From the NCBI GenBank assembly GCA_945869735.1, contig CAMBPQ010000012.1, forward strand, positions 1 to 64,000: a stretch of 64,000 bases of DNA, read 5' to 3'. This document shows, piece after piece, positions 7,159-40,407 of the stretch (positions are counted from its first letter, which is position 1; the number at the start of each line of letters is the position of its first letter). The position numbers and the translations under genes are program-made. The notes below the pieces were generated by a model, which worked only from the letters and a program-made list of their open reading frames with translations, did no database searches and had not been told where the DNA came from. The DNA comes from Planctomicrobium piriforme. GTDB taxonomy: Bacteria > Planctomycetota > Planctomycetia > Pirellulales > UBA1268.

Positions 7159-8163
7159 TCAGCCTGCGGACGCGGCGCGGCGGGCCTCGAAACGCAGCCG
7201 TTCCCGGTCGAGCCATCGATCCTGCGCCTCGCGCTGCGTCTGCTTTGCAGCCGCTGCCAGCGGCTGCATCCGGGCCAGCGCCTCGGCGACGGCCGGTGCA
7301 TCGCACCACCCGTCGTGCACGAGTGCCCGAAGGAGCATGTCGGGCAGGACCTGGAACGGGGCGGCATGCAGGAGCGGTGAGAGGGCCGGTGGCCGGCACG
7401 TAGCCGCGAGTACGTCGCCATAGATCGCGCGGCCCTCGGCGAGGGTTCGGGCGAACAAGGGCAGGATGCCTATGGAGGCCGCGAAGTCGTCCCACTTGAA
7501 GGGGACGTCGACGTGCCCCGAATCGAAAAATGCGAAGGGCACGCCGTAGGCACAGGCGGCGATGGCGGCATGCAACGAGCCGCTGAGCACGAAGTCGGCG
7601 CCAGCGATCAGCCGGATGATCTCGCGGAGGTGCGGCAGCAACGGGGGGATGGCCGCCGAGACGACGTCATCGACGCCAGTCTGTGATTTGATGTCCGCGG
7701 GCAGCCGAGGCTCGTGGAAGTGGGTGACGCAGACCGTGCGCCCGTGGCCGACGGACGGCTTCTCCACGAGCAGCGGAAGGAGTAGACCGGGATCACCGAT
7801 GACCGTGTCGGTGGGGAGAGCCAGCGCATCGCGGGTGAGCGGTCCGCGGACGCCAAAGAAGGTTGCTCGCGACCGGCCCTCCACCGACAACCCCTCGGGG
7901 CCGCGCAGGCCACATCCCCAGAACGCCACGCTGCCCCTGTCGAGGTCGACGTGGAGCTCGGCGAGTGTGCGGCGGATTCGCTGATCACGGATCACGCTGC
8001 CGACGAGGTAGTAGGCATCGGCGGGCCACGAGGGCAGGACGAAGAGCTCTTCCAGGAATAGTTCTGTCAGGTAGTCGCCGAAGTTCTGCGGGCCGGCCAC
8101 ATCTTCCTGCCGCCAGTACCGCACGGGATGGTAGGCGGCGCCGGCCGCGTCTGGTGGCTGCAT
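7159..8163 (-). CDS. Polysaccharide pyruvyl transferase family protein
   Basis: 334 residues. AGPQNFGDYLTELFLEEL is the GxxNxGD-type N-terminal motif, GVRGPLTRDAL is the conserved VRG/S region, and LSGSLHAAIAACAYGVPF is the C-terminal S(L)H motif of CsaB/WcaK-like pyruvyl transferases. The family transfers pyruvate from phosphoenolpyruvate to sugars as ketals. The start could also be the GTG at 8169, which overlaps the upstream stop as GTGA. The last about 50 residues are charged and look coiled. Encoded with a GT4-like and a GT2 gene. Confidence 0.82.
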   Translation of the reverse strand: MQPPDAAGAAYHPVRYWRQEDVAGPQNFGDYLTELFLEELFVLPSWPADAYYLVGSVIRDQRIRRTLAELHVDLDRGSVAFWGCGLRGPEGLSVEGRSRATFFGVRGPLTRDALALPTDTVIGDPGLLLPLLVEKPSVGHGRTVCVTHFHEPRLPADIKSQTGVDDVVSAAIPPLLPHLREIIRLIAGADFVLSGSLHAAIAACAYGVPFAFFDSGHVDVPFKWDDFAASIGILPLFARTLAEGRAIYGDVLAATCRPPALSPLLHAAPFQVLPDMLLRALVHDGWCDAPAVAEALARMQPLAAAAKQTQREAQDRWLDRERLRFEARRAASAG

Positions 8164-8165
8164 CG

Positions 8166-9200
8166 TCACACGACCTCGTCGATAAAGGAACACAACTCCG
8201 CGCCGATCGGTCCCCATTCGTAGGCCGAGAGGTCACACCGGCCGCCGTCGTGACTCCGGAGAAGGGCGACGAACGACCCGAGCGTGGCCGGAGTGAGGTC
8301 GCCATCGTAGAGTCGCAACCAGTGGTCACCGACACGGTTTTGGATTTCCTGCAGACCGCCCAGTCTTGGTGCGAGGACGGGCCGATCGCGGGAGAGCGCG
8401 AGAAGCGCCGAGCCGCTGTTGAGAATGCACCGATACGGCAGGACGAGTGCGTGGCAGTCGTCGATCGCGGCTTCGAGTTCGGGTTCGGACAGAAAGCTGC
8501 TCCTGAGGTCGAGGCGGACGTCCGCCCGGCCGGCGGCCAGCGCCTCGACCTTCGCCGCATAGGCCTCGTCGTGACGGAAACCCGCGATCATCATTCGGAG
8601 GTCGGGCACGGCGATCTCTGCCGAGCAGGCGAGCAGGCTCTCGAGATTCTTGTAAGGACGTACGCGACCGACATAGCCCAGTCGGATCCCGGAATCACGC
8701 GACGGCCACGGGCGGACCGGCGTTACAAATAGATCGCGGTAGTGGCCGTGTCGCGTGACCAACTCCCACGCGACGGCCGGTCGATGGGCGGCGTCGATCG
8801 CGTCGCGGGAGTCATGCGACAGATGGATGATGCCGTCGAGGCAGGCGATGAAGTCGCGGGTGAGGGCATGGCGTTGCGGTGCCGAGTCATGCGGATGCAC
8901 ATTGTGGGCAACCCAGAGAAACCGCGTGCCCGCGGCGCGGGCCGATCGCCACGCGGCAAGCAGTTGCTCCGCCGCTTCTGCCGCAGCGTCCGACGCGGGT
9001 GCGAAGAACCGGTTGGGCCAGTGGAAGATCACGACGTCGGTGCCGGGTGGGAACTCCGGCTCGTAGCCATAGGCGACGGTGTCGAATCCGCCGGCACGCA
9101 GACACTCAGTGAACGCCCGCACGAAGGTGTTAGCGCGGACCTCAAGCGGGGCCAGCGCGATCCGGACGCCCGAGCGCTTGTCGCCTGTGATCATCGTCAT
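8166..9200 (-). CDS. Glycosyltransferase, GT4-like
   Basis: 344 residues. The N-terminal half has VVIFHWPNRFF and FLWVAHNVHPHD, typical of GT-B enzymes. The C-terminal half has LGYVGRVRPYKNLESLLA and LVLPYRCILNSGSALLALS, the nucleotide-sugar binding region. The ATG at 9200 overlaps the upstream GT2 stop as ATGA, and its own stop is linked to the pyruvyl transferase, so three genes form a coupled set. Substrate unknown. Confidence 0.8.
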   Translation of the reverse strand: MTMITGDKRSGVRIALAPLEVRANTFVRAFTECLRAGGFDTVAYGYEPEFPPGTDVVIFHWPNRFFAPASDAAAEAAEQLLAAWRSARAAGTRFLWVAHNVHPHDSAPQRHALTRDFIACLDGIIHLSHDSRDAIDAAHRPAVAWELVTRHGHYRDLFVTPVRPWPSRDSGIRLGYVGRVRPYKNLESLLACSAEIAVPDLRMMIAGFRHDEAYAAKVEALAAGRADVRLDLRSSFLSEPELEAAIDDCHALVLPYRCILNSGSALLALSRDRPVLAPRLGGLQEIQNRVGDHWLRLYDGDLTPATLGSFVALLRSHDGGRCDLSAYEWGPIGAELCSFIDEVV

Positions 9201-10015
9201 GTGGCGCCGCCGACTCTGGCCGCCGGGTCGAGCACATGCTTCGTCCGCGGATGCCTTGGGCAAAGAGGCTCGCCGGGCCGGCGTTCCTTGAGTTGGGTCG
9301 CCGCCGGGAGGCAGATGTCCTCGGGCGTGAGCCGTGACCGCCAGCGATGCCAGCCCTTGGCGATCATCGCCGGATCGTATGTTCGCGTCTCGATAAACTT
9401 CTCGACGGCATGGGCCGCGCTCAAGAACATGTAGTGCTCAAGAGGGAGCGACTCCGGGTGCATGTGCAGGCCGGAGAAGCTGACCTCATGGCCGGCGCAG
9501 TCGACGAGATTCACGGGCGTGTCCTGCCGTTTCCAGGCATTGAGGCGATGGGGAAACCTGGGAAGAAACGGGTAGTACCACCGCATGGTGTCGCGAAACC
9601 GGGGGTGGTCGTGGTCGGGCGCTTCCTGCGTGGGCGTGAACGTGAACTCCAGGAAGTTCACGGCGTTGGCCCCCGCGGCATCGGCCTCGGCGAGTGCGGC
9701 GGCGAGGGTCTGGCCGGGCTTCGCCCCCGTGCGGATTTCGTCGGCATCGTGGTGGATGAACCAGTCGGCATCGAGCGTCGCGGCGAGTTCCTGCTTGCGG
9801 GTGAGCACCCGCTGCAGGCTGAAGTATTCCGTCCGCTTGAGCGACTCCATGCCGACGAGCCCATGGCCAAGATAGCGGCGGGCGATCTCGGCGGTGTCAT
9901 CGGTCGAGCCGTTGTCGATCACGTAGGCCTCCACCCCCTGCGCGAAGAGGTGCTCGAGGCAGCCGGCGATGAAGCGGCGTTCATTGAAGACGGCGATGAG
10001 GGCGACGATTCGCAT
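9197..10015 (-). CDS. Family 2 glycosyltransferase
   Basis: 272 residues. It starts MRIVALIAVFNERRFI, continues AYVIDNGSTDDTAEIARRYL, and has a metal-binding DADWFIHHDADEI stretch; this is a GT-A fold of the Glyco_tranf_2_4 type. The C-terminal part, with HVS-like VSFSGLHMHPESL and YPFLPRFPHRLNAWK, is common in bacterial members. The start at 10015 was chosen because the upstream extension is antisense-like and lacks motifs. It is translationally coupled to the GT4-like gene downstream. Confidence 0.8.
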   Translation of the reverse strand: MRIVALIAVFNERRFIAGCLEHLFAQGVEAYVIDNGSTDDTAEIARRYLGHGLVGMESLKRTEYFSLQRVLTRKQELAATLDADWFIHHDADEIRTGAKPGQTLAAALAEADAAGANAVNFLEFTFTPTQEAPDHDHPRFRDTMRWYYPFLPRFPHRLNAWKRQDTPVNLVDCAGHEVSFSGLHMHPESLPLEHYMFLSAAHAVEKFIETRTYDPAMIAKGWHRWRSRLTPEDICLPAATQLKERRPGEPLCPRHPRTKHVLDPAARVGGAT

Positions 10016-10058
10016 GCTCGTTCCAGCGCGAGACCGGCGACTGCCGGAAAGAAGCTGA

Positions 10059-12281
10059 TTATGACAGAGCCGGCCGCGGCGCCGCACCGCCGCTTGGCGT
10101 CTCAGGGCAGTTGTCGGGTGGAAAGTCTGTGTCGAGCCGCACCCGCGCGGCCACGCCACTGCCGACCGGCGTCACGCCGAGCAGCACGAGGCCGCCCCGC
10201 TCCTCCAGCGTGCGGCCGTCGAAGGTGATGAATACGGACGCCGCGGCGTCCGACGACAGGACCACGTCGTGGAGGAGGTCGCCGGCTACGGAGAAGACGA
10301 GCCGCGCGGCCCCCGGCTCGGCCAGGCTCACGTTCACCACGAATCGGCCACCGGCGAACCGGCCGATCTCAAGGAGCAGCTCGGCCGCATTCGTCGGGCA
10401 TGCGATCGGGCCACTGAGCGGCAGGATGGGAACCGTGAGCCCACGCGCCTCGAGGCTTTGGGTGGAGGGGACAGAGCGGCGCCACTCCAGGGGCAGCCGC
10501 GCCGGCGTTGCGAGCCGCACCCGCGCCGCCTCGTCGGGATCATCGATCACGGGAAACGCAGTTCGGCCGGTTCCGAGATAGTAGTCCTCGAACTTGGCGA
10601 ACGGCTCCGATGCCGGGGGCCGCAGAAGCACCGCCGGCACGCCCAAGGCCTCTGCCAGGATGATGCCGTGCAGGGAACTGGAGACGACCAGTTCGGCCGC
10701 GAGCATCTCGCGAAGCATCACGTACAGATCGCAGTCGACGCTGCGGAAGCGACGGTCGACCGCACTGAATCGGTCGAGCCACACGGCCGTGTCTTTGTAG
10801 TGCGGGACGAGCAGCAGTCCGCGGGGCGGCGGCGATGCCCGGCGGCAGGCGGCGATTTCGTCGGGAAGGATCTCCCCCACGAGCTGGCCGGGATCAAAGA
10901 AGGGCACGTCGGGCGGCACTGCGACACCGTTTCGGGAGAGATACTCCGCCGTCAGTGGGCCACGGACCGCGCGAACCTCGATCGACGCCTTCTCAGCTTC
11001 GGTCAGGGCGAGCGGCTGATCCTTGAAGCCGCTGCCCCAGATCACGTCGCCGGGCTGGGCGCGATGAGCGATCGAGCCGGCGCCAAGGAGCCGCCGCGAG
11101 CCCTGCTCGGCATGGAGGGTGTGCATCCCAAAGAGGGCGGCGGTGAGGTGCCGCTGAAGCGAGTCGCCTACGTTACCAAACACGAAGCGACCGGAGTCGA
11201 GTTCGGCGGGAGTGCCGAGGATGGCCCGGCGAGGTTGCCAGTGGAACGTGCGCACTGCGGCCGATCTGGGCATGGGGACGGCGGGTGGTGCGTGCAGTTC
11301 GCGAACACCAGCGATGCGGGTGAGCGGCACAAGCCGCTTGAAAACATCCGCCGCGTCGTAGGTGCGATACCCGCAGGCCAAGTCGTTGATGCCATAGGTG
11401 ATCGAGAACCGGCCGATTCCCGGGCCGGCGACGAGACCCGCCGGATAGAGGCAGTGCGTTACGCGGGCGTTGAGCTTGTGATCCGGTTGCATTCGTCGCT
11501 CCTCGTCGTCGAGGGCGAACAGCGGCCATGGTCCGGCGGCCAGGGGGGCGAACGGCGCTCCGGGCTCGAGTTCCAGCATGTTGCCGGCATATTCGAAGCC
11601 GTCGTCCCCGCGGCTGCGACTCTGGAAAACGGTGACGAGACGGCCGTCGAGCATGCACGGAGACGAGCCGCCATGGAGCGGGCCGAAGGGCGAGCGGATG
11701 TGGTCGGCCAGCCAGTCGTGCCGCCAGGCGGGCTCGCAGACGAGGCGGCCTTCGACGAACGTGCAGGCCAGGATCTCGAGCGGGTCGAGCGTGTAGATCG
11801 CGAACAGCCGGTCGCCGCAGGGAAAGAATCCCCAGTTTTTCTCGATCAAGCGTCGGCCTGTCGGCAGGTGCACCGGCAGCGGAGCCGCGGTCGGCCGGCC
11901 CGCGTCGTTGACCTCGACCACGAACAGTTCGTTGGGTCGTCGGCTGTGGCCCGTGTTGAAGGTGACGAACTGTTTGCCTTGAAACGAGAACGCTCGCGGG
12001 TCGGCGACCCAGGCCGGCGCTTCACCCCGCGCCGCCAGTTCCGCCGTCCAGTCGACGGGCACACCGATGGGCCGAAAGTCTTCCGCAAGTTCGCAGCGAA
12101 ACACCCGCCGCGTTCCGTCGGCCGACACGCCACGAAACAAGCAGACAACGCCGGTGGAGGAACGGAAGACGGTCGGGTTGAAGAGATGATCGCAGGCCGC
12201 GGCAGGGGCCGCGAATGAGAGCAGTCCCGCGGAGGCCGGACCGGGCAGGGGCAGTGATGAGAAAGGCATCGTGGCGGCCAT
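10059..12281 (-). CDS. Propeller-domain and polysaccharide pyruvyl transferase fusion
   Basis: 740 residues. Residues about 1-350 resemble a five-bladed glycosidase-type propeller: repeated blades include AWVADPRAFSFQGKQFV, LIEKNWGFFPCGDRLFAIY, GPLHGGSSPCMLDGRLV and YGINDLACGYRTYD, similar in layout to GH130/GT108-like proteins. That assignment is an inference. Residues about 390-640 are a pyruvyl transferase domain with FVFGNVGDSLQRHL, VRAVRGPLTAEYL and SSSLHGIILAEALGVPAVLL. A further C-terminal region of about 100 residues is beta-rich and unrecognised. The ATG at 12281 is preferred; a second ATG is at 12269. It lies 31 bp after the GT34 gene. Confidence 0.75.
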   Translation of the reverse strand: MAATMPFSSLPLPGPASAGLLSFAAPAAACDHLFNPTVFRSSTGVVCLFRGVSADGTRRVFRCELAEDFRPIGVPVDWTAELAARGEAPAWVADPRAFSFQGKQFVTFNTGHSRRPNELFVVEVNDAGRPTAAPLPVHLPTGRRLIEKNWGFFPCGDRLFAIYTLDPLEILACTFVEGRLVCEPAWRHDWLADHIRSPFGPLHGGSSPCMLDGRLVTVFQSRSRGDDGFEYAGNMLELEPGAPFAPLAAGPWPLFALDDEERRMQPDHKLNARVTHCLYPAGLVAGPGIGRFSITYGINDLACGYRTYDAADVFKRLVPLTRIAGVRELHAPPAVPMPRSAAVRTFHWQPRRAILGTPAELDSGRFVFGNVGDSLQRHLTAALFGMHTLHAEQGSRRLLGAGSIAHRAQPGDVIWGSGFKDQPLALTEAEKASIEVRAVRGPLTAEYLSRNGVAVPPDVPFFDPGQLVGEILPDEIAACRRASPPPRGLLLVPHYKDTAVWLDRFSAVDRRFRSVDCDLYVMLREMLAAELVVSSSLHGIILAEALGVPAVLLRPPASEPFAKFEDYYLGTGRTAFPVIDDPDEAARVRLATPARLPLEWRRSVPSTQSLEARGLTVPILPLSGPIACPTNAAELLLEIGRFAGGRFVVNVSLAEPGAARLVFSVAGDLLHDVVLSSDAAASVFITFDGRTLEERGGLVLLGVTPVGSGVAARVRLDTDFPPDNCPETPSGGAAPRPALS

Positions 12282-12312
12282 CGGCGTGGCGGCTCCCGGC
12301 CGCGGTTCACAG

Positions 12313-13026
12313 TCACACCGACTCGTCGGACTTGGTGGGCTCGACGATCCGTAGCTGTGAGAGCCAACTTTCCGGCGTGAGGTAGCGGTTTGCGCTGAGT
12401 CGCGTGGCGAACTCCTCCATCGACTGCTGCTTGGTGCGGCCCGCGAAGTGGACGAGAAAATGCTCGTCGAGCGACGCACGGTACTCGAAATCCCGGTTGT
12501 TGAAGCAGTTGTGGTCGAGGATGCGGCAGAAGTTGCCGCCAAACCGTGGATCGGTCTCGACGAGGTGCACCATGGCGTCCTGCTCGCTGCGGGTGAAGTA
12601 GCCCAGGTCGTCACGCCACGCCGCCTTCACGGCCGCGAGATCGACCGCCAGCACTCCGCGGAGGAAATCATGGCCCCGGGGTGTGTTTCTCAGGAGGAAC
12701 GATCCCGACGTGAACTTCGTGAACAGGGTCTTCGTCGAGGGGCTCTTGCAGATCACCAACTCGGCGTCCGGGGCGGCCTCAAGGAATCGCGTCAGTGGAA
12801 TGCGAAAGTCGGTGAAGTAGGCGTCGTCGTCGATCCAGAAAATCCAGTCGAACGGGTCGAAGTAGCGGAGGATCGTCTCGATCTTGCTGAAGTAACGCCG
12901 TCGGTCGCGCTCCGGAGAGCTGTTGAAGATGTACTGGTAGCCGTGGCAGTCGGCGTAGCACTTGTGATTGATCTGCGAGTTGAAGCGGACGCCGGGATAG
13001 TGTCCCGAGAGGATTCCAAGCTTCAT
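12313..13026 (-). CDS. Glycosyltransferase family 34-like (GMA12/MNN10 type)
   Basis: 237 residues. FDPFDWIFWIDDDAYFTDF carries the DxD metal-binding motif, and LITH-like GSFLLRNTPRGHDFL plus SEQDAMVHLV match the galactosyl transferase GMA12/MNN10 pattern. HFAGRTKQQSMEEFA near the C-terminus fits the conserved HFAG motif. First gene of the leftward glycan run; the upstream 430 bp separates it from a divergent sigma-54-type unit. Confidence 0.82.
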   Translation of the reverse strand: MKLGILSGHYPGVRFNSQINHKCYADCHGYQYIFNSSPERDRRRYFSKIETILRYFDPFDWIFWIDDDAYFTDFRIPLTRFLEAAPDAELVICKSPSTKTLFTKFTSGSFLLRNTPRGHDFLRGVLAVDLAAVKAAWRDDLGYFTRSEQDAMVHLVETDPRFGGNFCRILDHNCFNNRDFEYRASLDEHFLVHFAGRTKQQSMEEFATRLSANRYLTPESWLSQLRIVEPTKSDESV

Positions 13027-13342
13027 GTCGACCCTCGTGTCCTGTTCCGTGTTCGTGCGTTGCCCACGGGCCAGGAAAGATTAGGGGGCCGCGTGAGGAT
13101 GCTTCAAGGCCCGGGCCCATTTGCCCCACCATGCTGGTGAGCCCTCATCGGGACGGTGAGGAGCCGCGCAAAGCCCTGGAAAACAGCTGTTTCCCAACGC
13201 TGGACCGGCTTTTTCGCGAGCCGAGGGGCACCAGTGTGGTGAGGCCCGCCGCATGCCTGCAACCGACGGCAAAAAAGTTTTTTAGCGGTTTTGAACCGTG
13301 ATTTTGGCCTCGTTTTGCGAGCCGCACGTTCGTCGCGGCGAT
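13027..13342. other. Intergenic region without recognisable gene
   Basis: This stretch lies upstream of the leftward GT34 gene and the rightward receiver-like gene. It contains an A6-G-T6 palindromic run around 13272-13286. Reading frames through it show no family features. It must carry the promoter of the leftward glycan genes, but I cannot point to a convincing sigma-70 site. Confidence 0.4.
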
Positions 13343-13360
13343 TTGGCACGCGGACTGCAA
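13343..13360 (+). promoter_or_regulatory. Sigma-54 (RpoN) promoter, -24/-12 elements
   Basis: TTGGCACGCGGACTGCAA matches the YTGGCACGrNNNTTGCW consensus except for C in place of the first T of the -12 box and C at the r position. The invariant GG (13345-13346) and GC (13357-13358) are 12 bp apart, as required. The predicted start near 13370 gives a 5' leader of about 90 nt before the receiver-like gene. An enhancer-binding activator would be needed; none is encoded in the window. Confidence 0.72.
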
Positions 13361-13447
13361 CTGATCCCTCTTGTCGCGAGCGATCGCGGATGCCTGACGG
13401 CGAAGGCCGTGCATCACGAGATCGCCCGTGTTCGTTCGGTCGCAAAT

Positions 13448-13456
13448 AAGGAGGTG
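13448..13456 (+). promoter_or_regulatory. Strong ribosome-binding site
   Basis: AAGGAGGTG, a near-perfect anti-16S match, lies four bases before the ATG at 13461 and fixes the start of the receiver-like gene. It is much stronger than the average leader in this window. Confidence 0.8.
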
Positions 13457-13460
13457 TGAA

Positions 13461-13946
13461 ATGATGGTTGTTGCCGTTGGGATCACGTCGGATGAAGTGC
13501 GGTCGCTGGCGAGTCAGGCTCCCGCGTTCCGTGCCGCACGTGGTTCGGTGCTCAAGAGCCTTGTGGTGTCGGGCGACGCGGTCCTTCGTGGCCGGCTCGG
13601 CACGATGTCCGAACTCGGTGGATTTTCCGCCTGCGACATGCCCGCCGATGCCTCCGACTTCAGGTCGGTGATCGATGGGGACTACCAGCTTGTGATCGTC
13701 GACATCGCCCGTCCGTTGGGCGATCGCGTCAGTGACACGGTGGAGATCGCCGAAGAGTTCGCCGGCCGGCCCGGCACGCTGCTGGTGGTCTGCGGATCTG
13801 ACGACAGCGTTGACGAGGAACTCTGGGCCCGCCAACTCGGTGCCTGGGTCTACCTGCCGGGTGTTTCGGGTGGCGACGCCCTCATGTCGCTGTTCGCCGA
13901 GGCCCGCCGAGTCGCCGAACGTCGGGGTGTCTTTCAGTACGTCTGA
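13461..13946 (+). CDS. Degenerate response-regulator receiver-like protein
   Basis: 161 residues. The alternating pattern YQLVIVDIARPLG, TLLVVCGSDDS and GAWVYLPGVSGGDALMSL resembles beta3, beta4 and beta5 of a receiver domain. The Asp of VDI could be the acceptor, but the Lys after beta5 is missing (YLPG instead of YLxKP). There is no output domain. A signalling or scaffold role is inferred only. Preceded by a sigma-54 promoter and a very strong Shine-Dalgarno sequence; followed at 14097 by the PEP-CTERM gene, probably in the same transcript. Confidence 0.6.
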   Translation: MMVVAVGITSDEVRSLASQAPAFRAARGSVLKSLVVSGDAVLRGRLGTMSELGGFSACDMPADASDFRSVIDGDYQLVIVDIARPLGDRVSDTVEIAEEFAGRPGTLLVVCGSDDSVDEELWARQLGAWVYLPGVSGGDALMSLFAEARRVAERRGVFQYV

Positions 13947-14096
13947 GGATCGAGCGCGGCTCATGCCGCGTCGGTCCGCCAAGGAATCGTGAGCGAGTGA
14001 ATCAAGTGTCCGTTTCCGGCCGTTCGGTCGGCGGACGAGCGTGAATCGGAAGTCATCAAAACGCCCCTCAGGGCTCAAAAGCGAAGGAACAGTGTC

Positions 14097-15350
14097 ATGA
14101 GCGCAGTTGTGGAATCCCATCGTAACGATTTGGATGTGAGCTATGCGGTCGACTTCAGTCGAGATCGCGAGCCAGTCAAGCAGCGGAGCCGGTTCCCCGA
14201 ATATCGCCGCACGGGCAGTGCCCCGGCCCGGGTGAACGGCATGCACTGTCGCCGCAGCAAGCGGTGGACGTGGGGCAGCGGCCGCGGAGCCCGGATGCAG
14301 AACGCGAGGGCCTTTGCCGGCTGTCTCGCCGTCGCCCTCGCGAGCGTCTCCGCCAGCGTACTGGGCGTGACGATCGATTACGCTCCGGTCAATAACGCGG
14401 GTAACCCTGCCAACCCCGCCACGGGCCTTGGAGCTGTCTCGAGTTTGTTCAACATCTCAAAGTACGAGACGACGAACTCCCAATACGCCGACTTTTTAAA
14501 TAGCGTGGATGCTGCGGGCACCAACCCCAACTCTGTCTACCAGCCGTCGGCCGTCACCAGCGGAACGACGTTCTTTAACCCGATCACCTTCAACGCGGGC
14601 GCATCGAGTGGGGCGAAATATTCGGTCGGCGGGGGCAACGCCACCAAAGGAGTGACGTTTGTGAGCTGGTTCTCAGCGGCTCGGTTCGCCAACTGGCTCA
14701 ACAATGGCCAGCAGTCAAGCTCTGCCTCAATGGAAACTGGTGCCTACACGCTCAGCAACCAGACCTCCGGGGCAGCCGTCGCTCGCAATCCTGGCGCCAG
14801 CGTCTTTCTGCCAAATGCCGACGAATGGACCAAGGCGACCTTCTTCAACGCCGCGACGGTCAACTATCGACAGTTTCCGTACAAGGGTGGCGGCACGGCT
14901 CCGACCGCCGTCACCTCGGGCACCGGGGTGTTGGGGACAAACGTCGCCAACTACGGTGCGGCTCAGGGCCAGACGACCGGCCTGACTAACGTCGGCCTCT
15001 ACGCCAACGCGAAGTCGTGGTACGGCCTCTACGACGCCTTCGGCAACGCCGGCGAGTTCACCGAGACTGCCAGTGCCACCTCCCCAGCCGACCGGGTGAT
15101 GTTGCTCGGCTCGAGCTGGCGGCTCGGAACGGGTGGCGTCGGGAGCTGGACGTCGAACACGGCCTCCAACACTTACCTCACCAGCAACTTCTCGGATTCG
15201 ATGGGCTTCCGCGTCGCAGCGGTCCCCGAGCCGGCCACGATCGCCCTCGCTGGAGTGGGAATCGTGAGTCTGGCGGGCCTCGACTGGCTGAAGCGGCGGA
15301 AGCGGAAGGCTGTCGCCCAGCAGGCCTCCGTCTCCCAGATCACTGCCTAG
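14097..15350 (+). CDS. Exported SUMF1-fold protein with PEP-CTERM anchor
   Basis: 417 residues from 14097. A signal peptide (FAGCLAVALASVSASVLG) sits at residues about 73-90, so translation may really begin at 14241 or 14295; the 14097 start has a GAAGGA site. Residues about 95-375 follow the formylglycine-generating-enzyme fold (SKYETTNSQYADFL, VSWFSAARFANWL, FLPNADEWTKATFF, GNAGEFTE, LLGSSWRLG, SMGFRVAAV). The mature part has no cysteine, so sulfatase-activating chemistry is unlikely. The C-terminus VPEPATIALAGVGIVSL plus LKRRKRK is a PEP-CTERM signal for exosortase processing. No exosortase gene is in the window. Confidence 0.85.
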   Translation: MSAVVESHRNDLDVSYAVDFSRDREPVKQRSRFPEYRRTGSAPARVNGMHCRRSKRWTWGSGRGARMQNARAFAGCLAVALASVSASVLGVTIDYAPVNNAGNPANPATGLGAVSSLFNISKYETTNSQYADFLNSVDAAGTNPNSVYQPSAVTSGTTFFNPITFNAGASSGAKYSVGGGNATKGVTFVSWFSAARFANWLNNGQQSSSASMETGAYTLSNQTSGAAVARNPGASVFLPNADEWTKATFFNAATVNYRQFPYKGGGTAPTAVTSGTGVLGTNVANYGAAQGQTTGLTNVGLYANAKSWYGLYDAFGNAGEFTETASATSPADRVMLLGSSWRLGTGGVGSWTSNTASNTYLTSNFSDSMGFRVAAVPEPATIALAGVGIVSLAGLDWLKRRKRKAVAQQASVSQITA

Positions 15351-15381
15351 TTGGCACGTCTTGAATATCCGGACAATCGAG

Positions 15382-15416
15382 CCCCGCCCCTCGCCCACGC
15401 GAGGGGCGGGGTTTTT
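15382..15416 (+). terminator. Rho-independent terminator
   Basis: A perfect 13-bp GC-rich stem (15382-15394 pairing with 15399-15411) with a 4-nt loop, followed by TTTTT at 15412-15416. It closes the receiver-like/PEP-CTERM unit 31 bp after the stop codon. It is the clearest intrinsic terminator in the window. Confidence 0.9.
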
Positions 15417-39035: not shown

Positions 39036-39641
39036 ATGAGCACACCCCATCACATGAGCACACCCCATCATCAGGTCGACCATGCCCGCATCGAGCGGGC
39101 CGTCCGCGAAATCCTTGCCGCCGTGGGCGAGGATCCGGACCGCGAGGGGCTGCTCGAGACGCCCGCCCGCGTGGCGCGGATGTATGCCGAAATGTTCAGC
39201 GGCCTCCACCAGGATCCGCGGATGCACCTCACGAAGGCCTTCAACGAGAAGTACGACGAGATCGTGCTGGTGCGAGACATCGCCTTCAACAGCGTCTGCG
39301 AACACCACCTGCTGCCGTTCATGGGCCACGCCCACATCGGCTACATGCCCGACGGTCGTGTGCTGGGCCTGAGCAAGCTGGCTCGCGTGGTCGAGGTGGT
39401 GTCGCACCGGCCACAGGTGCAGGAGCGGATGACGGAACAGATCGCCGACCTTCTGGAGAACGATCTGGGCGCCAAGGGCGTGGCCGTCGTCGTGGAGGCG
39501 ACCCACACCTGCATGACGATCCGCGGTGTGCGTAAGCCGGGTAGCCTGTGCGTGACGTCGGCTATGAAGGGACTCTTCCGTGCGAACGTCTCGAGTCGCG
39601 CCGAGGTGATGTCGCTCATCTACGGCAGCCGCAGGCAGTGA
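39036..39641 (+). CDS. folE: GTP cyclohydrolase I
   Basis: 201 residues. [20 protein letters not shown] holds the zinc Cys and the catalytic His residues, and [17 protein letters not shown] the second zinc Cys and substrate-binding residues. It makes dihydroneopterin triphosphate for folate or related pterins. The start region is an 18-bp tandem duplication (MSTPHH twice), so translation could begin at 39036 or 39054. Confidence 0.95.
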
Positions 39642-39687
39642 GCCGCGGGCCACAACGGCCGCGGGCGACACCCGCGGAGGAGAGGGC

Positions 39688-40407
39688 ATGAGGCTGCTCG
39701 TCGACTTTCTGTGCCGGTTTGGCTGGGGCATGGCGGCGGCACTGGCGGCGACGCCGGCGTCGATGGTGCCGGCCGGCTTCTACCGGGTGAATCTGCTCGT
39801 CGTCCTCGGGCTCACGAGCGTGGCAGCCTTTCTTGCCCGCATCGAGGTTCCGGGGATCGTCTGGGGGCTCGCCGGCGCCGCGGCGGTGACCGCGTGGGTC
39901 GGCAGCGTGGCCTGGTTTGGCGAACGTGTGCGTGTCGGGCTCACCTGCTGCGTGCTGTGCGCGGCACTGCTGGCGGCCGCGACGGTGCTCGTCCAGGATC
40001 GGCCCGGTGTGGCGGTCGCCGGCGAGGCGCTGGTGTCGGGGCTCGTCGTGGGGCTCACCGTGCACGCGATGCTGCTGGGCCATTGGTATCTCAACGCACC
40101 CGGCATGCAGGTCGACGCACTTCGGCGGATGATCGACGTAGCGCTCCTGGCATGGGGCGTGCAACTGGCCCTGGCGCTCGCTGGCGTCGTGGCGGTGGGA
40201 GGGTGGGGGGTGGCCAGTGACACCACCACGGGGGCGCTCCTCTCGCTCCGCTGGCTTGCCGGTCTGGTGGGCCTGCCGGTGCTCCTGTTCATGAGCCGTA
40301 AGACACTCGACATTCCCAACACGCAGAGCGCTACGGGTATCCTATATGTCGCGTGCCTCGCCGCGATCCTTGGTGAACTGACAGCACAACTCCTCCGAGC
40401 CGCCTGA
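39688..40407 (+). CDS. Polytopic membrane protein of unknown function
   Basis: 239 residues with about seven hydrophobic segments and a conserved-looking HAMLLGHWYLNAPGMQ between helices 4 and 5, whose two His residues could bind metal or haem. The GGAGGAGAGGGC leader supports the ATG at 39688. Four bases separate its stop from the zinc-ribbon gene that follows. Confidence 0.65.
   Translation: MRLLVDFLCRFGWGMAAALAATPASMVPAGFYRVNLLVVLGLTSVAAFLARIEVPGIVWGLAGAAAVTAWVGSVAWFGERVRVGLTCCVLCAALLAAATVLVQDRPGVAVAGEALVSGLVVGLTVHAMLLGHWYLNAPGMQVDALRRMIDVALLAWGVQLALALAGVVAVGGWGVASDTTTGALLSLRWLAGLVGLPVLLFMSRKTLDIPNTQSATGILYVACLAAILGELTAQLLRAA

Follow-up and report, generated by a model that had tools for sequence, protein, structure and literature searches.

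How is an operon that joins a degenerate receiver-like protein to an exported PEP-CTERM protein controlled in a member of the Pirellulales, and what could a receiver of this kind be doing in it? These questions are raised by a locus within a window of 64,000 nucleotides (the whole stretch of DNA analysed), which belongs to a 3.17-Mb draft genome assembled into 128 contigs. We followed the locus from its promoter to its products, and then weighed the readings that could account for them.

The promoter region and its upstream dyads

An earlier note on this DNA had described a site fitting the RpoN consensus with correct GG-GC spacing, a Shine-Dalgarno sequence and a strong terminator, and all three were found again:

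13344-13359, plus strand: sigma-54 -24/-12 promoter TGGCACGCGGACTGCA, agreeing with 11 of the 12 specified bases of TGGCACGNNNNTTGCW, with GG-N10-GC spacing
13448-13456, plus strand: Shine-Dalgarno sequence AAGGAGGTG, recognised from its sequence and similar in orthologs
15379-15414, plus strand: intrinsic terminator hairpin followed by a T run (-38.8 kcal/mol, z = -5.3)

Within the 64-kb window, TGGCACGCGGACTGCA is the sole exact match to TGGCAC-N6-TGCW. Genome-wide, exact matches to the -24/-12 pattern number 16, against 39 for the reversed pattern, and, as there is no enrichment, the site could not be judged alone and conservation had to decide. A -24/-12 site with 10 to 12 of the 12 specified bases, located at most 300 bp upstream of the receiver gene, was present in all 24 orthologs of the window's family with upstream sequence (some of them close relatives, so that the independent cases are fewer), where the chance of such a site, estimated from first-order Markov shuffles, is 1.7% per locus. 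As the remaining upstream DNA of these orthologs has diverged to approximately 40-49% identity (69% in the closest relative) and is otherwise unalignable, retention of the site in every one of them indicates that it is not there by chance. Moreover, the other families also carry a sigma-54 site upstream of the operon's first gene, often with the canonical TTGC, reaching at least 10/12 in 14 of 23 loci and at least 9/12 in 21 of 23. The rpoN gene, whose absence the earlier note had named as fatal to its reading, is present in the window's genome. Overall, control of the operon by sigma-54 is strongly supported, and we infer that the receiver-like gene and the fused gene that follows it (described below) are co-transcribed.

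The earlier note saw this promoter but missed three dyads, spanning positions 13125 to 13243, which resemble CTCACCA-N3-TGGTGAG and carry no strand:

13125-13141: enhancer dyad UAS1, CCCACCATGCTGGTGAG, 13/14 to the motif, at -219 from the -24 element, a position kept in orthologs
13144-13160: enhancer dyad UAS2, CTCATCGGGACGGTGAG, 11/14, at -200 from the -24 element
13227-13243: enhancer dyad UAS3, GGCACCAGTGTGGTGAG, 12/14, at -117 from the -24 element

A spaced-dyad search recovered CACC-N5-GGTG upstream of the promoter in 19 of 20 family loci, with shuffled sequences giving at most 5 for any dyad. The full motif occurs in up to three copies per locus, at distances from the -24 element that hardly vary (close to -220, -200 and -118 for the window's family), and UAS1 to UAS3 are three of the five best dyad matches in the 64 kb. 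Since the window's family alone had served to define the motif, the other families represent an independent test; in them, the dyads lie mostly near -196/-177/-106 or -207/-188/-116. A score of at least 11/14 was reached by 22 of 24 family loci and by 18 of 20 other-family loci, the formal count for the latter having taken the 17 loci with a sigma-54 candidate, as compared to about 1% of shuffles. In addition, the only match without mismatch to TCACYA-N3-TRGTGA in the Lacipirellula limnantheis genome falls within the upstream region of its receiver operon. At the level of sequence, the test supports the conserved dyads as putative enhancer sites of an activator.

The receiver-like protein, the small protein and the exported cargo

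The coding part of the operon comprises the following features:

13461-13946, plus strand: degenerate receiver-like protein, 161 aa
14097-15350, plus strand: fused gene, 417 aa (small protein, signal peptide, SUMF1/FGE-like domain and PEP-CTERM)
14097-14273, plus strand: small-protein domain, residues 1-59, with NGMHCRRSKRWTW at its end; other genomes encode it as a gene of its own
14442-15218, plus strand: FGE-sulfatase/SUMF1-like domain (PF03781)
15219-15287, plus strand: PEP-CTERM sorting motif (PF07589), VPEPATIALAGVGIVSLAGLDWLKRRKRK

That the first product is receiver-like and lacks the conserved Lys, as had been claimed, holds: its AlphaFold2 model (pLDDT 82) shows the CheY (beta-alpha)5 fold, with the NtrC1 receiver (4l4u) as the best PDB match, and Gly134 stands at the position of the Lys of receivers. 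Within the family, Asp81 is invariant, the acidic pair is absent and the block EEIWARQLGAWLYLPG is conserved, so the protein is predicted to be unable to signal as a canonical phospho-receiver. A profile search gave no Pfam match. Of 60 related genomes, 33 contain a homolog, and among named assemblies there are 46 loci with one, Lacipirellula limnantheis being represented; the nearest relatives in public databases are metagenome assemblies of uncultured planctomycetes, part of which bear the label Pirellulales. Outside Pirellulales, the receiver profile returned weak matches only, many of which are activator receivers.

The downstream product had been described as a PEP-CTERM protein of the SUMF1 fold, which PF03781 and PF07589 substantiate, but its residues 1-59 had gone unrecognised as a fused small protein. 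Elsewhere, this small protein (57-67 aa) has a gene of its own, which lies on one side or the other of the receiver gene and is present one to three times, and the stand-alone version ends exactly in NG[IMLV]HRRRxKRxxW. Residues 1-59 represent a new family of approximately 60 aa with a basic motif at the C-terminus. Searches of Pfam, NCBIfam, PHROGs and the PDB gave nothing usable for it, and no convincing member was found outside the order among 292 genomes of the phylum, of which few candidates per genome were scored. At one locus (L105:1423-2130), a single receiver gene is followed by three small-protein genes in a row, each with the NGIHRRR...W terminus.

In at least 12 family loci, the small-protein frame continues through the linker GSGRGAR into a signal peptide, PF03781 and the PEP-CTERM tail, and paralogs of the exported part come without the N-terminal piece; in the window's genus, the small protein is fused to the exosortase substrate. 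In eight family loci the small gene is separate and has no PEP-CTERM gene next to it, which means that the cargo is not obligatory. In 14 of 23 loci of the other families, the same strand carries a PEP-CTERM ORF downstream, generally of another type, so the pairing of receiver-like and PEP-CTERM genes, for which the earlier note had proposed a search in relatives, recurs across Pirellulales.

The fused protein carries a PEP motif, a TM helix and a basic tail, and the exosortase gene that was to be looked for is present in the genome; we infer that the product is exported and sorted by exosortase. Its AlphaFold model is poor (pLDDT 53), with a low-confidence N-terminus and two hydrophobic helices. 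The catalytic cysteines of a formylglycine-generating enzyme are missing, as no Cys occurs after the signal peptide, and hence the fused protein is not an enzyme of this kind acting by the known mechanism. Regarding the neighbourhood, a Ser/Thr protein kinase gene (PF00069; 15487-17697) lies downstream of the fused gene and is kept in approximately ten family loci. On the other side, a cluster of glycosyltransferase and polysaccharide pyruvyl transferase genes (7159-13026, minus strand) adjoins the operon, which fits the usual link between exosortase and exopolysaccharide.

The probable activator E1 and the competing readings

The candidate for the enhancer-binding protein, E1, is a sigma-54 activator of approximately 330 aa. 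In six loci of other families (L102, L104, L112, L113, L117 and L118), its gene precedes that of the receiver by 1-2.5 kb. The only parts of E1 are PF00158, together with the lid, and an HTH of the Fis type (HTH_8), and the absence of any sensor or regulatory domain gives it the architecture of a group-4 bEBP. Sensor-less activators of this group are regulated by protein binding in trans (PMC7175178), and E1, having no sensor domain, would likewise be expected to be controlled in trans, as is PspF. In the window's genome, one clear E1 ortholog with 62% identity (the next best activator has 41%) is found at G000:C52:14629-15696, not adjacent to the operon. Among relatives outside the window's genus, 17 have both receiver and E1, one has the receiver only, two have E1 only and 18 have neither (Fisher p = 2e-7, uncorrected for kinship). 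Several genomes of the window's genus (eight by count) have E1 without a close receiver, which implies either that E1 has other targets or that the drafts are incomplete. E1 is probably the dedicated activator of the operon, and synteny and co-occurrence suggest that it binds the CTCACCA-N3-TGGTGAG dyads.

The regulon of E1 in the window's own genome was probed with one exact pattern, the CACCA-N3-TGGTG core, which occurs in nine places; a strong sigma-54 site accompanies it only at the receiver operon and on contig C13 (G000:C13, locus L006:1501-2752). There, a sigma-54 promoter stands before a short ORF, MMVVAHGITSEEVVWTRR, that agrees with the beginning of the receiver gene until it reaches a stop; a PEP-CTERM gene comes next, and a perfect dyad lies approximately 260 bp downstream of the promoter, not upstream. 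This locus looks like a decayed copy of the receiver operon. Furthermore, an E1 paralog with 51% identity (G000:C23:36745-37731) lies approximately 1.5 kb from another FGE-domain gene (39253-40353), and the two may form a further pair of activator and cargo. At L074:1090-1450, in a relative that lacks a close homolog of the receiver, a PEP-CTERM gene of the FGE type carries a 12/12 sigma-54 site, but its upstream repeats read GGGGCGAATCGCYCCAC and hint at a different activator.

We consider it quite probable that the locus is an enhancer-dependent sigma-54 operon, belonging to a Pirellulales-specific module of sigma-54 and a group-4 activator with a receiver-like protein, small proteins and, usually, exosortase cargo. 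The promoter, enhancer array, gene order, fusion, conservation and co-occurrence are what the DNA itself shows. E1, through its AAA+ domain and Fis-type HTH, would bind the three dyads, which precede the -24 element by approximately 220, 200 and 118 bp, and contact RNA polymerase-sigma54 by DNA looping, with transcription starting near 13370; the messenger would span the receiver-like gene and the fused gene, and end at the terminator. The signal peptide would then direct the export of the fused product, and the exosortase of the genome would sort it via the PEP-CTERM tail. The fact that the small and the exported proteins are separate elsewhere and fused here suggests that they may act together, the small protein in a role that is hypothetical. 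Because of its fold, synteny and co-occurrence, the stand-alone receiver-like protein is the best candidate for the trans partner of E1, which would create feedback; such control is a tentative hypothesis, to which we assign a rather low probability. With equally modest confidence, the arrangement may be read as a naturally split NtrC, in which a stand-alone receiver that works independently of phosphorylation, the product of the operon's first gene or of one adjoining it, would control a sensor-less sigma-54 activator in trans, and a new small protein with a conserved basic motif at its C-terminus would link the switch to the exosortase cargo, having become fused to that cargo in one genus.

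There is close to an even chance that sigma-54 and E1 do control the operon, with the receiver-like protein acting not on E1 but downstream, for example together with the small protein, the export machinery or the adjoining Ser/Thr kinase. The recurrence of the kinase gene is in agreement with this, as is the fact that small and receiver genes remain linked also at loci with no E1 beside them; however, the kinase gene accompanies the fused version only, and both the strong co-occurrence of E1 and receiver and the expected need of E1 for a trans partner favour the receiver as a regulator of E1. A different question is whether the small-protein part is translated separately, with the PEP-CTERM protein starting at the internal Met67, directly after which a plausible signal peptide begins. 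This is improbable, as orthologs have Val, Ile or Gln in place of that Met, the GSGRGAR linker shows conservation at the protein level, and the fused orthologs keep an open frame that no separate stop interrupts.

Regarding the promoter, the base before TGC is mostly G and not T in the window's family (20 of 24 sites), bringing the -24/-12 site near a short dyad, GCAC-N5-GTGC, which could be the palindromic operator of a dimeric repressor, with the promoter itself unrecognised. Such a reading is very unlikely: the flanks are conserved asymmetrically (TTTGG / ATTTC), the other families have the canonical TTGC, the enhancer dyads lie at distances typical of bEBPs, and no sigma-70-like promoter was found in the region. 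The least probable reading of all is that the proteobacterial PrsK/PrsR two-component system drives the operon. Sigma-54 promoters and an enhancer motif ending in TTTACA precede proteobacterial PEP-CTERM genes and were matched to PrsK, PrsR and PrsT (Haft, PMC1569441), and pepA of Aquincola is RpoN-dependent (PMC9850573), so the logic of sigma-54 and enhancer before exosortase substrates is shared; yet the suggestion of PrsR found no support, as none of the ten strong sigma-54 activators of the genome reaches the TIGR02915 cut-off of 502.6 bits, the two best, of response-regulator type, attain 371 and 357 bits and score higher on NtrC or AtoC models, and the proteobacterial motif 1, reported only in Proteobacteria at a mean of 63 bp from the promoter, is unlike the window's dyad, with no TTTACA in the operon's upstream sequence.

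Relation to known systems

The preferred reading, an E1-activated sigma-54 operon, resembles the PrsK/PrsR regulon (TIGR02916/TIGR02915) in placing exosortase substrates under sigma-54 promoters with upstream enhancers, but differs from it in enhancer motif and spacing, in the lack of a receiver domain in E1, and in encoding a stand-alone degenerate receiver and a small protein. As in the PspF/PspA phage-shock system, whose activator belongs to group 4, an activator made of AAA+ and HTH would be expected to be controlled in trans, and something encoded in the operon that it activates might feed back on it; nevertheless, PspA is a coiled-coil membrane protein, whereas the candidate partner here is CheY-like, and E1 remains below the TIGR02974 cut-off. 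The receiver model, with its best match in the NtrC1 receiver, and the many distant hits that look like activator receivers recall NtrC/NtrC1-type activators. In those, receiver, AAA+ domain and HTH form one chain, whereas here receiver and AAA+ are separate proteins, and the Lys and the acidic pair have been lost. Moreover, the fused protein shares the PF03781 and PF07589 architecture of planctomycete exported SUMF1/FGE-like PEP-CTERM proteins, from which it differs by the small protein at its N-terminus.

Haft and colleagues, in 2006, found the motifs confined to Proteobacteria and stated that other regulators and DNA motifs were still to be found (PMC1569441), and a survey of predicted sigma-54 regulons that includes Planctomycetia mentions neither PEP-CTERM nor exosortase (PMC12316311). 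Among open-licence papers, our literature search returned no description of a Pirellulales module of receiver, small protein and PEP-CTERM protein. The locus provides a concrete planctomycete case, with a promoter, a three-site enhancer and a named candidate activator, and a cultured species, Lacipirellula limnantheis, also carries the operon. Two protein families for which neither Pfam nor NCBIfam has a model are defined by the locus as well, the receiver-like and the small protein, the latter tied to an exported protein by gene fusion. Altogether, the switch looks like the Pirellulales' own equivalent of a control system that had until now been known from Proteobacteria alone.
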